Positions 2,889 to 6,592 of a DNA stretch of 6,592 nt are shown piece by piece; positions within the stretch are counted from its first letter, which is position 1, and every line of letters begins with the position of its first letter. Source of the stretch: Fusobacteriota bacterium (GTDB lineage Bacteria; Fusobacteriota; Fusobacteriia; Fusobacteriales; Fusobacteriaceae); assembly GCA_003973585.1 (NCBI GenBank), contig QNYN01000044.1, positions 1-6,592 on the forward strand, in the 5' to 3' direction. The position numbers and the translations under genes were made by a program. The notes under the pieces were generated by a model. It was not told the origin of the DNA, searched no databases, and saw nothing but the letters and a program-made list of their open reading frames with translations.

Positions 2889-2919
2889 AAAAGGAGAATT
2901 TCACTGAGATTCTCCTTTT
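2889..2919 (+). terminator. Bidirectional terminator between convergent operons
   Basis: A perfect 11-bp stem (2889-2899 with 2909-2919) has a 9-base loop. The stem ends in a T-run on the plus strand, and the complementary A-rich stretch upstream (2881-2892) supplies the U-tract for the minus strand. It lies 8 bases after the rubredoxin stop and 14 bases beyond the stop of the minus-strand zinc-ribbon gene, so it can end both operons. Confidence 0.9.
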
Positions 2920-2933
2920 CTATTGGTTTAGTT

Positions 2934-3176
2934 TTAGTAATCTATTCCTGCTGCCATGATATTATTTATATCAAAGGCATGGCAAGGAGTAACTCCATAT
3001 ACCATTCCACAATGAGGACATTTATATTCCATAGTAACCATTGTAATTTGCTCACCACAGTTGTGACACTCAAATACAGCAGGTACTGGCATAGGTTGAA
3101 CATTAAACCCCATCATTCTTACTTTATCTACTACTTGCTTTCCATCTTCAAAACTTCCGTTACATCCATCGTGCAT
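2934..3176 (-). CDS. 80-aa zinc-ribbon-like protein, last gene of the minus-strand operon
   Basis: I do not recognise a named family. The protein has two CxxC knuckles, C37-H-N-C40-G and C53-P-H-C56-G, spaced 12 residues apart. This is the signature of a zinc ribbon or rubredoxin-like metal site. Two further cysteines flank them, C5 in M-H-D-G-C and C65 in P-C-H, with histidines at H2, H38, H55 and H66. There is no signal peptide or membrane segment. It begins 12 bases after the ABC-ATPase stop, with GGAGG immediately after that stop codon and 7 bases before the ATG, so translation is linked to the operon. In context it may be a metal-binding adaptor, metallochaperone or small electron carrier for the three upstream proteins. 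The gene call is firm. The function is inference only. Confidence 0.8.
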   Translation of the reverse strand: MHDGCNGSFEDGKQVVDKVRMMGFNVQPMPVPAVFECHNCGEQITMVTMEYKCPHCGMVYGVTPCHAFDINNIMAAGIDY

Positions 3177-3188
3177 ATTTTTTCCTCC

Positions 3189-4220
3189 TTAATTATGTGT
3201 AATTGTAAAATTTGCTTCTAATTTATGACCATATCTTAATTTTGTTCTCATTCCTAGTATTACATTATCTAAAGCTTCTAATTTACTTAAAATAGATTTT
3301 TCTTCAGCTGAAACTTCCATTACCTTATCTATTCCACCATTACTAATGATGATTCTTTTATCTCCCATAAGGGCAAGAATAGGATCGTGAGTAGCCATAA
3401 GAACTATTTTCTCTTCTCCTACTAATAAATCTAAAGCTTTTTTTCTATCAATTCCAGCATTTTCTATTTCATCAATAAGAACAATTGGAGATTTACTAAG
3501 AATTGCTACATCGGCAATCATAAGAGCTCTCGATTGTCCTCCACTAAGACTAGTAATAGGAGTAGTTAATTTAAATTTTTCTCCTGCTAATTCATTTGCT
3601 TTATTAAAAATATTTTCTATAACTTCAGCTTCATTTTCTACCATTCTACTTTTTGCATGAAGTTCGATAAATTCTTCTACACTAAGGTCCATTACAAAGT
3701 TCATATTTTGAGATAATTGAGCTACTAATTTATTTCCACTAGAAAATCTAGTTTCGATATCAAGAGGTTTACCGTCGATTAAAATAACTCTTTCAGTAGG
3801 AGTATCAGCATTAGCTCCCCACTCGATGTCTGCTAAAAGTCTACTTTTTCCACTACCAGTAGGACCTACAATAGCAATAATTTCCCCTTTATGAATAGTT
3901 AATTCTTCAAAAGTTTCTCTTTCTTTAAACTTATTAAATCCAGGTTTTATAGTAATACTTTGAACTCCTTTATCTTCTGTTACTCCTAAAAAATCTATCA
4001 TTTGATTAGTATAAACAATAAATGATTCTATTAATTCTTCAGGAATAATAGCCTTTTCCTCAAGAGTTTCTTCATCTAAAAGATTTAAGTGGGCAATAAG
4101 TGTTGTATCTTTTGCATCTTCAATATCTATAAGGTGATCAGTTAAAAAATCCTCAATAAAAGGATAAAGTTCTATAAGTTCAGCAACTTTTTTTTCTTCT
4201 ACTATTTTAATATCTATCAT
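3189..4220 (-). CDS. Soluble ABC-type ATPase with N-terminal DUF1858-like domain
   Basis: This 343-aa protein has a complete ATP-binding cassette: Walker A GPTGSGKS (residues 119-126), a Q-loop region around 168-171, signature LSGGQ (225-229), Walker B IVLIDE (246-251) and H-loop histidine H278 in ATHD. The first about 75 residues form a separate helical domain (V-A-E-L-I-E-L-Y-P and onward) resembling the DUF1858-like N-terminus of the substrate-binding-type protein in the same operon. A tail after about residue 300 includes RTKLRYGHKLE. No membrane segment is present and no permease gene is adjacent, so it may not be a transporter subunit. Non-transport ABC ATPases are known, for example AtwA for methyl-coenzyme M reductase activation and SufC for Fe-S assembly. 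The start codon overlaps the upstream stop by one base (TAATG), with GGAGG 7 bases before it. Annotation as an import ATPase would be the standard alternative. Confidence 0.85.
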   Translation of the reverse strand: MIDIKIVEEKKVAELIELYPFIEDFLTDHLIDIEDAKDTTLIAHLNLLDEETLEEKAIIPEELIESFIVYTNQMIDFLGVTEDKGVQSITIKPGFNKFKERETFEELTIHKGEIIAIVGPTGSGKSRLLADIEWGANADTPTERVILIDGKPLDIETRFSSGNKLVAQLSQNMNFVMDLSVEEFIELHAKSRMVENEAEVIENIFNKANELAGEKFKLTTPITSLSGGQSRALMIADVAILSKSPIVLIDEIENAGIDRKKALDLLVGEEKIVLMATHDPILALMGDKRIIISNGGIDKVMEVSAEEKSILSKLEALDNVILGMRTKLRYGHKLEANFTITHN

Positions 4221-4915
4221 TATTTATCCTCCAAATCTATTTTTCTCACATTTCCCATTTGATGTTCTTCACCAATTCTAGTTTCTCCTAAACAATAAGA
4301 ACATAAAGCTGAAGGCATAGAAAATCTTAATTTTTTCCCTTTTAAAGTTGTTAATTCTTCGTTTTTACCATAAATAAGTGTTGAAAATTCATAAGCTCCT
4401 TGACCTGTTAATCCATTAACATGCATAGTGATAGCACGAGGATTTACCGAAGTAACCCTTGACATAAATACTTCCCTTTCAGCTTGAGAGACGATATCTC
4501 CCTTTGTAATAACTACTATATCAGCAGTTTTCAACATAGGACCGATTTTTTTAGGAGTATTAATTCCACTTAAATTATCAATTACACAGATAGCCTTTAT
4601 ATCTTGGATATAAGGTGAACATCTATTACATAATCCAGCACTTTCTGTAATAAGTAAATCTAACCCTTGTTTTATTCCCCATTGAGTTACTTCTTCTATA
4701 TTACTTACGAAATAATGATCGGGACAAAGTGATGCAGAGAGTCCTTTTTTTACAGGAACCCCTATTTTCTCATATAAAATATCATCGTCTGTATATAGAC
4801 AGTCAAATTTTACAACTCCTACTTTTACCCCTCTAGATTTTAAATTTTCTATTGTTTTTAATATTAATGCAGTCTTCCCTGATGAGGGAGGACCAGATAC
4901 AGTTATTAAATTCAT
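4220..4915 (-). CDS. HypB/UreG-like P-loop NTPase with cysteine motifs, putative metallochaperone
   Basis: This 231-aa protein resembles the SIMIBI-class G3E GTPases (HypB, UreG, CobW) that power metal insertion into enzymes. Seen are Walker A GPPSSGKT (residues 8-15), a D38-C-L-Y-T-D-D switch-like stretch, a Walker B-like LLITESAG (87-94) followed directly by C96-x-x-C99, then CVIDNLSG and TKGD (137-140) in place of the canonical N/T-K-x-D. Extra cysteines are C64-P-D-H, and a C-terminal C205-S-Y-C208-L-G followed by H218-Q-M-G. The cysteines beside the nucleotide site recall the metal-binding CPH/CxxC motifs of UreG, HypB and CobW. The start at 4915 is chosen because GAGGAGG lies 9 bases upstream and no homology precedes it. 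It begins one base after the stop of the upstream gene. GTP versus ATP specificity and the metal are not determinable here. Confidence 0.82.
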   Translation of the reverse strand: MNLITVSGPPSSGKTALILKTIENLKSRGVKVGVVKFDCLYTDDDILYEKIGVPVKKGLSASLCPDHYFVSNIEEVTQWGIKQGLDLLITESAGLCNRCSPYIQDIKAICVIDNLSGINTPKKIGPMLKTADIVVITKGDIVSQAEREVFMSRVTSVNPRAITMHVNGLTGQGAYEFSTLIYGKNEELTTLKGKKLRFSMPSALCSYCLGETRIGEEHQMGNVRKIDLEDK

Positions 4916-4916
4916 C

Positions 4917-6125
4917 TTACTTTGCCTCCTCAAAAAATAATTTTTCACAGTGTTTTAATATTTTACCAATATCGTTATTTTTTATATAATCCCATCCTAC
5001 CCACATAAATGTTTTATCTCCTAAATTATTGTCAACATTAGGATTTACAGTAGGGAATAATCCTTGATGAGATAAAATTTTTCCAATTTCTTCTCCAGCA
5101 AAAAAGTCTACTAAAGGTTTTAAAGCTTTTTCTTTTGACTTTTTAGTAAGCATAAAGATTGGAGATAAAGCTGCTCCATCTTCAGGCCATTGTGCTACCA
5201 TTGGTCCACCTTGTCCTGTCATCTTTGTAAAGAAATACGGCATAATAGTAACTGCAGGTACATTTACTTTTAATTTATCAGATTTTACCATTTGTGAAGG
5301 ATGCATATTTTGTAGTAGAGTTTTTCCTAATTTTCTTACACCATCTTCACCATAATTCTTATAAATACTAATTAATATAGCGTTAAATAAGTCAAAATCA
5401 GAAATAGGTAAACTAACTGAATTTTCAAATTCAGGTTTTAATAAATCAGCCCACGATTTTGGAAATGGACGATCTCCTAAAGCATCTGTATTTACTAAAA
5501 ATACTGCTGGAACTACTGCTAACATAGAATAATCACCATCTGGATCTTGAAGTGAAATATTTTCATTGTTAAAGTCTTTATTATATTCAGTCATTCCTGT
5601 AATATCTTTAAAAATTCCCTCTTGTTTAAATTTCCCCATAAGTTCATCTTCGAAAAATAAATCAAATCCAGCTGAAATAAACATATCTGCTAATTTTTCT
5701 GGATGGTTAGCTTTTATAACATCTTCTTTTAGCCAGTCTAGACCACTAGAAGCAGCTTTTAATTCATGATTTATTTTCATTCCTGTTTCAGCTTGGAATT
5801 TTTTTAATCCTTCTAATAATGGATTTTTAACTGGACAAGGTAAAAGCCCCATTACAGATACAGCATCTTCATTTTTAATATTTTTATTAAGATTAACATC
5901 TTCAGAATTTCTATCTTGATCAACCATATCATTTAATAATTCTACAAATGTATCTACATTTATTTTTTTTGTTTCAAGAGCTTTTTGTAGAGTTATTTTT
6001 CCAATTGTATTAAGTAATGTTTTGTTATCTAAACCTTTAAACCCTTTTGAATTGAAAAAATCAATTGTTTCAGGATAAGTTGTAACAATTTCTTTTAGAG
6101 TCATTTCTTTGTTAATATATTTCAT
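4917..6125 (-). CDS. Cytoplasmic-looking ABC substrate-binding-fold protein with N-terminal DUF1858-like domain
   Basis: This is a 402-aa, two-part protein. Residues 1-70 form a helical domain that reads like DUF1858 (M-T-L-K-E-I-V-x-x-Y-P-E near the start, and I-T-L-Q-K-A-L then I-N-V-D-T-F-V-E-L-L-N at its end). A polar linker (about 70-88) leads to a region (89-402) resembling iron(III)/AfuA-type solute-binding proteins, including VPAVFLVNTDALGDRPFPKS, W225-A-D-L-L-K-P-E-F and late L-F-P-T-V-N-P. The usual signal peptide or lipobox is absent: the N-terminus is charged and the binding domain starts inside the chain at GLLPCPVKNPL, with a conserved-looking C97. It should therefore stay in the cytoplasm. 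It is the first gene of the operon. GAGGTG 7 bases upstream selects ATG 6125. The in-frame TTG at 6140 overlaps that site and is rejected. The ligand is unknown. An iron, other metal or oxyanion binder is an inference from the fold. Confidence 0.82.
   Translation of the reverse strand: MKYINKEMTLKEIVTTYPETIDFFNSKGFKGLDNKTLLNTIGKITLQKALETKKINVDTFVELLNDMVDQDRNSEDVNLNKNIKNEDAVSVMGLLPCPVKNPLLEGLKKFQAETGMKINHELKAASSGLDWLKEDVIKANHPEKLADMFISAGFDLFFEDELMGKFKQEGIFKDITGMTEYNKDFNNENISLQDPDGDYSMLAVVPAVFLVNTDALGDRPFPKSWADLLKPEFENSVSLPISDFDLFNAILISIYKNYGEDGVRKLGKTLLQNMHPSQMVKSDKLKVNVPAVTIMPYFFTKMTGQGGPMVAQWPEDGAALSPIFMLTKKSKEKALKPLVDFFAGEEIGKILSHQGLFPTVNPNVDNNLGDKTFMWVGWDYIKNNDIGKILKHCEKLFFEEAK
4925..4931 (-). 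promoter_or_regulatory. Shine-Dalgarno site fixing the NTPase start at 4915
   Basis: GAGGAGG lies inside the last codons of the upstream gene, 9 bases before the ATG at 4915-4913. The longer alternative beginning at a GTG at 4948 would add 11 residues that precede the family's usual start and would overlap the upstream gene by 32 bases. Confidence 0.8.
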
Positions 6126-6132
6126 TAGTTCC

Positions 6133-6138
6133 CACCTC
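6133..6138 (-). promoter_or_regulatory. Shine-Dalgarno site fixing the start at 6125
   Basis: GAGGTG lies 7 bases upstream of ATG 6125-6123. The TTG alternative at 6140-6138 overlaps this site and has no ribosome site of its own, so it cannot be the main start. Confidence 0.75.
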
Positions 6139-6157
6139 AACTTTTATTTTATGATTT

Positions 6158-6163
6158 ATTATA
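6158..6163 (-). promoter_or_regulatory. -10 element of the four-gene minus-strand operon
   Basis: A perfect TATAAT reads on the minus strand from 6163 to 6158, 32 bases upstream of the first start codon. With 17-base spacing the -35 position (6186-6181) reads AAACAA, which is not a sigma70 hexamer, and no TGn extension is present. The promoter therefore looks activator-dependent. Transcription should begin near 6152. Confidence 0.65.
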
Positions 6164-6183: not shown

Positions 6184-6203
6184 TTTGTAACCTATGTTAC
6201 CAA
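6184..6203 (-). promoter_or_regulatory. Palindromic operator GTAAC-N4-GTTAC, class II activator position
   Basis: A dyad with perfect 5-base arms (6187-6191 and 6196-6200) around a 4-base spacer extends with partial symmetry to TT-x-GTAAC on each side. Its centre (6193.5) is about 41.5 bases upstream of the transcription start predicted from the -10 element. That is the hallmark position of CRP/FNR-family activators overlapping the -35 region. HcpR-type nitrosative-stress regulators of this family are a candidate, by inference only. Confidence 0.6.
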
Positions 6204-6240
6204 AAAAACAAAAAACACCGAAATTTAAATTTCGATGTTT
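6204..6240 (-). terminator. Rho-independent terminator of the upstream minus-strand gene
   Basis: The stem pairs 6213-6224 with 6229-6240 around an AT-rich centre. The 6218/6235 position forms a G-U pair only in minus-strand RNA and is a C-A mismatch on the plus strand. The minus-strand transcript then runs into T-runs (from 6215 down to 6202, broken by one G). Polarity and position, about 30 bases after the stop of the permease fragment, indicate it ends that gene. Confidence 0.85.
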
Positions 6241-6282: not shown

Positions 6283-6371
6283 TCAAGTTTTAAGAGGTAT
6301 AGTTCTTTTACAAGGGCAAATCCTGGAATTGCTATAATTATACCAATAGCTCCAAAAAGTCCACCACCTCC
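6270..6371 (-). CDS. C-terminal end of an AI-2E family (PerM/YhhT-like) transporter, truncated at a chimeric junction
   Basis: Only about 31-33 codons of the AT-rich gene remain, ending at the TAA at 6272-6270. The readable end, GLFGAIGIIIAIPGFALVKE plus a short charged tail, is the last transmembrane segment and tail typical of AI-2E exporter/PerM proteins (G-x-x-G-x-x-G-x-x-x-A-x-P pattern before a cytoplasmic K/E-rich end). This is an integral inner-membrane protein family. The upstream part is replaced by unrelated GC-rich DNA near 6352-6371, so the true gene continues elsewhere. The family call rests on a short stretch and is moderate. The adjacent terminator supports a genuine 3' end. 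Confidence 0.6.
   Translation of the reverse strand, partial: GGGGLFGAIGIIIAIPGFALVKELYLLKLENKE
6350..6371. other. Chimeric junction between AT-rich genome and GC-rich fragment
   Basis: Base composition changes abruptly here. The bases across the boundary read sensibly in both flanking genes: in one frame as the glycine-rich turn of the AI-2E permease (G-G-G-L-F-G), in another as the E-V-V-D-F-L-E stretch of phosphofructokinase. About 20 shared bases at a point where two unrelated conserved genes meet mid-frame is what an assembler misjoin or chimeric read produces. Confidence 0.75.
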
Positions 6372-6592
6372 TCCGGCGGCTGGGGGCCTCGGGAAGAGCC
6401 CAGAATGGTGCCGCCGAACTGGTGTACCTGGGAGACCTTGTCCGGGGTCAAATCCATCACCTCATGACCATACCCGGGAATAAACCCTTCCAGGCCGAAG
6501 CGCACACCCAGGATCGATTCCACGCGGTAATGGTGGTGTGCTTCCATGACGATGGCCCGGATCACGTCGTTCACTCCCGGGCACAGGCCGCC
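6350..6592 (-). CDS. pfkA: Fragment of 6-phosphofructokinase in foreign GC-rich DNA, open at both ends
   Basis: The minus-strand frame entering at 6592 reads G-G-L-C-P-G-V-N-D-V-I-R, the nucleotide-site motif of 6-phosphofructokinases. It continues through ILGVRFGLEGFIP and the V-x-x-x-H-x-x-G-G-T-I-L-G-S-S-R-G block, in which the GGT-x-LG(S/T)SR motif is diagnostic. This is the glycolytic enzyme phosphorylating fructose 6-phosphate, of the longer group common in GC-rich proteobacteria and plants. About 80 codons are present and both ends are missing. The frame runs into AT-rich DNA and meets a stop at 6338, with recognisable homology ending around the E-E-V-V-D-F-L-E codons (6373-6350). G/C-ending codons contrast sharply with every other gene here. 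It is not part of the resident genome. Confidence 0.85.

Follow-up and report, generated by a model that had tools for sequence, protein, structure and literature searches.

SufC and AtwA are soluble ATP-binding cassette (ABC) ATPases of metallocentre assembly. To our knowledge, two questions are open: how strict anaerobes rebuild metal centres after attack by nitric oxide (NO), and how Hcp acquires its hybrid cluster. For hcp itself, Rodionov et al. (2005, PMC1274295) give GTAACnnnnGTTAC as the HcpR2 site, tied to proline 181 of the regulator, and report another motif for regulators with serine at that position. Here we analyse a stretch of 6,592 nucleotides (nt) from a Fusobacteriota bacterium (contig QNYN01000044.1 of assembly GCA_003973585.1; the window hereafter), in which the minus strand of a Psychrilyobacter-like genome carries four open reading frames (ORFs), A-B-C-D, as one permease-less transcription unit. 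An original prediction had placed four genes on this strand, with junctions of +1 (A/B), -1 (B/C) and +12 (C/D) bases, and the ORF list and a direct reading of the strand give the same arrangement. It had further taken the set for a module that binds a metal or cofactor and inserts it into a target enzyme or reactivates that enzyme. The core idea of an intracellular module stood, as did the chaperone-like character of B and D; the NO stimulus had been missed, and D turned out to be accessory only.

An HcpR2-type operator in front of the operon

The main new result, missing from the original prediction, is the predicted control of the operon by HcpR. An exact HcpR2 site precedes A (Table 1); it occurs once only in the window, and none of 200 shuffles contains any. 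A species-genome collection was scanned with A, and of the 178 relatives found 80 loci were kept; together with the window these make 81 sources, in 80 of which A was called as an ORF. Leaving out 15 Marinifilaceae near-duplicates yields 65 non-redundant loci. Within an interval running from 300 nt upstream to 90 nt downstream of the called A start, the exact site was found in 47 of the 80 sources, and a site within one mismatch in 54, as compared with 55 of 1015 starts of other genes in the same loci, a count that overstates the background because it includes hcp and genes sharing the spacer of A. Among the non-redundant loci 32 of 65 carry the exact site; 200 exact dinucleotide shuffles gave 0.01 on average and never more than 1. 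Across ~1.09 Mb there are 70 exact sites, with 47 before A, 17 before hcp, three before rrf2 and three elsewhere, so that the ~1.06 Mb of DNA flanking the A regions holds 23 copies, 17 of them preceding hcp. The three rrf2 genes (L044, L067, L069) end at most 12 bases from A and, therefore, head the operon at these loci.

In 24 of the 47 sources, a -10 hexamer that agrees at five or more of its six positions begins 29 nt past the centre of the site; any other offset between 10 and 69 is used in at most five of 47. This operator-to--10 spacing is that of a class II activator, bound near -41.5.

Regulators and operators co-vary. In 24 sources a CRP/FNR gene from a single cluster is found close to A, and in 20 of these the recognition helix contains R-P; 18 of the 20 have the exact GTAAC site and two (L047, L049) have it with one mismatch. 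R-S regulators occur at three Lachnospiraceae-type loci (L015, L018, L037), from which the GTAAC site is absent; in its place the spacers hold perfect palindromes of the CCGTTGTnnnnACAACGG or ATGTTGTnnnnACAACAT kind (CCGTTGTGAAAACAACGG or ATGTTGTAAAAACAACAT). The regulators neighbouring the fusobacterial and Marinifilaceae operons read A/T-R-P-S, the regulator gene lying outside the window. This co-variation is in line with the published residue-motif rule (PMC1274295). Membership of the operon, by its promoter, in the HcpR nitric-oxide regulon is a strongly supported prediction.

A conserved cytoplasmic core with metal-chaperone-like parts

In 77 of the 80 sources A is followed by B and C. 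The record titles of the loci include Fusobacteriota, Bacteroidota, Bacillota, Mycoplasmatota, Spirochaetota, Cloacimonadota and Aminicenantes/Acidobacteria, among others (at least seven phyla). The A-B-C core is old and spread over phyla. In a midpoint-rooted tree of 80 B rows, 43 cluster with a support of 94/94, slightly below the level that the tool marks with a star; they comprise 37 rows from the A scan, the same-type loci L117-L121, and L099, which has B and C only. L099 and L128 (a divergent A beside an importer) were left out of the same-type counts. Among the matches listed, the closest relatives of B (P0002 to P0027) are 94-98% identical to it, and the named ones are Psychrilyobacter or Fusobacteria bacterium. 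A six-frame search detected D in 65 of the 77 A-scan loci that have C, and six of the 12 misses have less than 150 bases after C. Searches of open-access PMC listed no paper on the operon, though a subscription paper could exist.

The location of the module in the cytoplasm is strongly supported. Over the first 60 residues the peak hydropathy of 80 A proteins is at most 1.22 (median 0.43), as compared with at least 1.88 (median 2.22) in 12 secreted controls. None of 77 loci has a permease-like gene separating A from C, and a multi-transmembrane gene is found in the same-strand run in three of 77; a hydrophobic stretch was flagged anywhere in two of 80 A, one of 77 B and two of 77 C proteins. 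Since A has no start resembling a signal peptide and no locus has a permease between A and C, the view of an intracellular module that is not an importer was borne out. A search of homologous operons for a permease or a secreted binding protein, proposed with that view, turned up neither inside the operon, and left the core claim standing. An importer that has lost its permease was rejected on the same hydropathy and permease counts.

A combines DUF1858 (58.6 bits, cut-off 32.2) with SBP_bac_6 (271.9 bits; both Pfam), and its LPC97P motif is invariant in 43 aligned sequences. Its best single-sequence PDB match is the iron-binding periplasmic protein 1y4t (E 3.4e-6), and its N-terminal domain weakly matches ScdA (E 2.5e-4). 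The ATG of A is preceded by a Shine-Dalgarno sequence; an in-frame TTG lies at 6140. C matches ABC_tran (65 bits, Pfam). A DUF1858 domain suspected by eye in its N-terminal extension gave one weak match (E 0.02) among four C proteins and is not claimed.

B belongs to the cobW/HypB/UreG family (PF02492, 44.3 bits, cut-off 20.7), with conserved GPPSSGKT and TKGD (P-loop and NKxD/TKxD). Of the folds shown in the VIA list, those of nickel-bound UreG and HypB come nearest to B, though families not shown there may match as well, and B scores below the curated HypB/UreG cut-offs (TIGR00073, 49.3 versus 121.2 bits; TIGR00101, 33.8 versus 204.2 bits). Its three cysteine motifs (Table 1) are invariant in 19 sequences of several operon types, the C-B-c2 type described below not being among them. 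D, with two CxxC, resembles the HypA zinc ribbon below threshold (PF01155, 24.5 versus 28.9 bits) and also scores under the TIGR00100 (HypA) cut-off (19.2 versus 88.1). Conserved in D are H2 (65/65), C5 (65/65), C37 and C40 (64/64 each), and C53, C56 and C65 (61/61 each); 96 of 120 homologues among the matches listed start with MHD or MHE. D thereby matches the HypA motif, an N-terminal MHE with two CxxC. From these features B and D look like metal chaperones, and the UreG/HypB fold, the aligned cysteines and the HypA-like residues uphold the metallochaperone call made before.

Table 1. Coordinates of the operon, its promoter elements, conserved protein motifs and flanking hairpins in the window.
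Feature	Position	Strand	Description
HcpR2-type palindromic operator GTAACCTATGTTAC	6187..6200		exact consensus match, 62 nt upstream of the ATG of A
TATAAT -10 box	6158..6163	-	consensus match, starts 30 nt after operator centre
gene A	4917..6125	-	402 aa; DUF1858 (~5943-6116) and SBP_bac_6 (~4974-5696); no signal peptide
gene B	4220..4915	-	231 aa; G3E-type (UreG/HypB fold) P-loop GTPase
B C64-P-D-H67	4715..4726	-	invariant; C64 aligns with the Cys of HypB 'KECH'
B C96-x-R-C99	4619..4630	-	invariant; C99 aligns with the Cys of HypB 'NLICPA'
B C205-S-Y-C208	4292..4303	-	invariant; near the C-terminus
gene C	3189..4220	-	343 aa; soluble ABC ATPase, N-terminal extension of ~90 residues
C Walker A GPTGSGKS	3843..3866	-	conserved, as are signature LSGGQSR and H278
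gene D (accessory)	2934..3176	-	80 aa; MHDGC N-terminus, CxxC...CxxC and C65; HypA-like
terminator-like hairpin	2889..2919		behind D, before the convergent rubredoxin gene
terminator-like hairpin	6213..6240	-	upstream of the operon promoter

Terminator-like sites number four in the window, as compared with 1.4 in shuffles. On the plus strand, positions 1042-2883 hold a cluster of a Fur/PerR-family regulator, ferritin, rubrerythrin and rubredoxin (2722-2880, by eye) that converges on the operon. At the other end, a phosphofructokinase fragment (6338-6592, ~55-68% GC) meets DNA of 12-33% GC at ~6345, a break suggestive of a chimeric join in the contig; near 6205 the homology shared with loci L001 and L002, both Psychrilyobacter-like, stops.

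Link to Hcp, proposed mechanism and alternatives

The link between the cassette and Hcp is both physical and genomic. hcp lies in the fetched stretch at 24 of the 65 non-redundant loci, and Hcp (TIGR01703) was found in 41 of 49 genomes with the cassette. In a class sample of 245 genomes, Hcp was present in 11 of 11 genomes with the operon type (confirmed from gene context, or known from the A scan) versus 106 of 234 others (p = 2e-4), a statistic that, like the other Hcp comparisons, ignores shared ancestry. The related enzyme carbon monoxide dehydrogenase (CODH), used as a control, was found in three of 11 (one a fragment) versus 44 of 234 and, showing no enrichment, was rejected as a linked client. 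In a phylum sample of 398 genomes Hcp was present in 10 of 10 genomes with the operon type versus 269 of 388 others. Taken together, the two samples contain 20 distinct genomes found through B (G024 is shared), all 20 with Hcp and 11 with it within 7 kb. RIC as a constant companion was rejected; a match was found in 20 of the 49 cassette genomes, above the cut-off in four only.

Other neighbours point to iron-sulfur (Fe-S) biology, as judged from their predicted families. An Rrf2 regulator with C-x6-C-x4-C lies near the operon at 12 loci (Cloacimonadota, Spirochaetes and a Neomarinimicrobiota record), and two scanned members are nearest to SUF-regulator and IscR models, under the cut-offs of these. 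An Nfu-like gene with CxxC (a NifU domain in the one scanned) overlaps or directly precedes A in five of five Mycoplasmatota-type operons, one of them titled Bacillales. Marinifilum-type loci carry a flavodiiron protein, and the one scanned is related to NO-reducing flavorubredoxin. Elsewhere, one DUF1858 protein of Bradyrhizobium is an NnrR target, and the DUF1858 protein DrpB of Thermus belongs to a nitrate-respiration locus.

We consider it probable, on balance, that the operon encodes a cytoplasmic, nucleotide-driven machine for the assembly or repair of metallocentres within the HcpR nitric-oxide regulon of anaerobic bacteria. NO would bind HcpR, which would activate the operon along with hcp through sites of one type. 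A, whose solute-binding fold stays in the cytoplasm behind DUF1858, would hold a metal or metal-ligand cargo, and C, a soluble ABC ATPase, would power the loading or release of A in place of a permease. B would then hand the metal to Fe-S enzymes, whether freshly synthesized or damaged by NO, helped by D where D is present, with Hcp probably among its clients. Here we infer the cargo (iron favoured, nickel possible), the order of transfer and the target.

Several observations weigh against this mechanism, the shared ancestry behind the Hcp counts among them. The exact HcpR2 site is missing before A in 33 of the 80 sources (three of these have one before rrf2), and the L023 regulator (R-E) fits neither motif and has no such site. 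With an A profile (A4), no match to a solute-binding protein of solved structure fell below E 0.001. Eight of the 49 cassette genomes yielded no Hcp, and three of these (L006, L030, L068) keep the exact HcpR2 site, so Hcp cannot be the sole client unless these assemblies are incomplete; incompleteness is possible, since all eight are titled as metagenome-assembled genomes. D is absent from six of the 77 A-scan loci that have enough sequence, and a six-frame search found it in only one (L093) of 18 same-type loci fetched through B. The HypA-like part is, therefore, not general, and D as a constant part was rejected; set beside 65 of 77, these counts make D typical only of the closer relatives of the window and A-B-C the general core. 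The suggestion that all four families co-occur across genomes thus held for A-B-C, and failed for D outside these closer relatives.

The same counts bear on a reading in which the cassette is a maturase that (re)builds only the hybrid 4Fe-2S-2O cluster of Hcp, much as HypAB serves NiFe hydrogenase and CooCTJ serves Ni-CODH. The operator type in common with hcp, the frequent adjacency and the finding of Hcp in 41 of the 49 cassette genomes and in all 20 found through B speak for it; nevertheless, we regard it as unlikely, given the eight genomes with no detectable hcp, three of them with the HcpR2 site, and given that 103 of the 231 class-sample genomes lacking B have Hcp, which is, therefore, generally independent of the cassette. 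Rather improbable, in our view, is a scavenging role, in which A would bind free iron or a dinitrosyl-iron complex from damaged clusters while B and C, joined by D in lineages that have it, clear or store it. The match of A to iron-binding 1y4t agrees with this role, as do relatives of the module that adjoin importers with a Peripla_BP_2-type binding protein (one scanned), the Fur-box-like sites of one variant, and the ferritin and Fur/PerR-family genes converging on the operon in the window. However, the ferritin and rubrerythrin of the window cluster with no ORF of the other loci (a rubrerythrin-like gene, recognized by eye, lies near the operon in L117-L119), and the A4 profile gave no solute-binding match below the threshold stated above.

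Delivery of nickel to a nickel enzyme, in the manner of HypA/HypB or UreG, would suit the fold of B, closest among the matches listed to nickel-bound UreG and HypB, and the MH(D/E) start and zinc ribbon that D shares with HypA. We hold it to be very unlikely: D is missing from 17 of the 18 loci fetched through B, which weakens the case, no nickel enzyme was recognized among the recurring neighbours, CODH is not enriched, and control by an NO regulon offers no reason for nickel. Scarcely credible is an ordinary ABC importer with its permease encoded at another place and its binding protein exported along an unrecognized route. The SBP_bac_6 and ABC_tran folds would fit it, and distant relatives of B and C do adjoin complete importers in other operons; yet the hydropathy of A is that of none of the secreted controls, no permease stands between A and C, and distant variants carry their own secreted solute-binding protein and permease in addition to A-B-C. 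The metallocentre assembly or repair machine under HcpR control thus remains the reading that we favour.

Sister modules and comparison with known systems

B-superfamily genes occur in 51 of the 398 phylum-sample genomes, in sister modules whose names rest on a few scanned members and, for the rest, on clustering and inspection by eye. Arrangements include A'-B-C with a Peripla_BP_2/FecCD-type importer and a S-adenosylmethionine methyltransferase, B-C with DUF364/DUF4213 'heavy-metal chelation', B-C-A' with a divergent CRP, and C-B with a PF04060 Fe-S protein. In the c16 CRP variant, Fur-box-like sites (15-17/19) precede B in four of four loci (L086, L097, L098, L136), and six of 616 control upstream regions reach 15. 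Fur control of the subfamily of the window was rejected, with no site of at least 15/19 in 80 upstream regions. The common denominator of the sisters seems to be metal, with hints of iron in some.

Several of these loci deserve mention in their own right. In Tissierella praeacuta (L086:8112-16553), a 17/19 Fur-box-like site precedes B'-C'-A', which is followed by a NifH/CfbC-like gene, by two genes of nitrogenase-component-1 type and by an importer of Peripla_BP_2/FecCD type; we know of no description of this nitrogenase-like cluster. DUF364/DUF4213-type proteins (scanned in L083, by cluster in the rest) lie near B and C in L083, L123, L124 and L131 and near C-B-c2 in L111. A methyltransferase-like gene and a small NTPase are additionally present in L083, L123 and L124, and two ThiC-like genes (by eye) lie on the opposite strand in L083. 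The clostridial operons L101-L104 and L108-L116 have the order C, B, c2, with a PF04060 Fe-S domain in scanned c2, and the B proteins of these operons make up a fully supported clade of their own. At L128:7000-10112, a secreted-solute-binding-protein-like gene precedes B, C and an A that is full-length yet divergent (163 bits, profile 5-410), possibly linking the HcpR type and the importer types. Cloacimonadota-type operons (L039, L040, L056, L060, L064, L066, L073) have a small cupin gene (by eye) directly before A, and in L056 and L064 an OsmC-like gene (by eye) also follows the operon. A GGTATTnnnRTACC palindrome precedes rrf2 or the cupin gene in L039, L040, L063, L064, L066, L067 and L074; found in seven of the 12 Rrf2 loci, it is a candidate Rrf2 operator.

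A wider idea, which we put forward tentatively and with some doubt, is a new kind of ABC machine: its ATPase would have as partners a G3E GTPase and a solute-binding protein of the cytoplasm, in place of a membrane permease, and would thus move iron or another metal between cytosolic proteins. The HcpR branch would repair or load Fe-S and hybrid-cluster enzymes under NO stress, and sister branches would serve iron-chelate import and nitrogenase-like enzymes. In any case, the operon suggests a soluble use of an ABC-ATPase/binding-protein pair outside transport, and offers a testable role for proteins now labelled hypothetical, HypA, rubrerythrin or Ni2+-binding GTPase. Since it is widespread, is predicted to be an HcpR target and includes parts that resemble metal chaperones, the rebuilding of metal centres after NO and the making of the Hcp hybrid cluster become approachable with three or four soluble proteins.

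Among described systems, the HcpR regulon has in common with the operon the operator GTAACnnnnGTTAC, often a divergent R-P CRP/FNR regulator and often the neighbourhood of hcp; its published content, as far as the excerpted source goes, is hcp, frdX and some redox genes, and the A-B-C-D set is not among them. RIC/YtfE/ScdA share the NO-stress setting and, through ScdA, a weak match with A, whereas A to D show no Pfam match to the di-iron hemerythrin. From HypA/HypB and UreG the operon differs in that B and D fall far below the curated cut-offs and D is often absent; moreover, the Hyp and Ure systems have no ABC ATPase or solute-binding fold, while the operon has both and is predicted to be controlled by HcpR. 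It resembles SufC/AtwA in an ABC ATPase that has no membrane partner and in a presumed setting of cofactor assembly, but has a solute-binding fold and a G3E GTPase instead of a SufB/SufD-type partner. Finally, a solute-binding fold (SBP_bac_6) and an ABC ATPase are shared with FbpA/PotD-type importers, from which the operon is set apart by its cytoplasmic, permease-less organization, its extra GTPase and, in close relatives, its zinc-ribbon protein.

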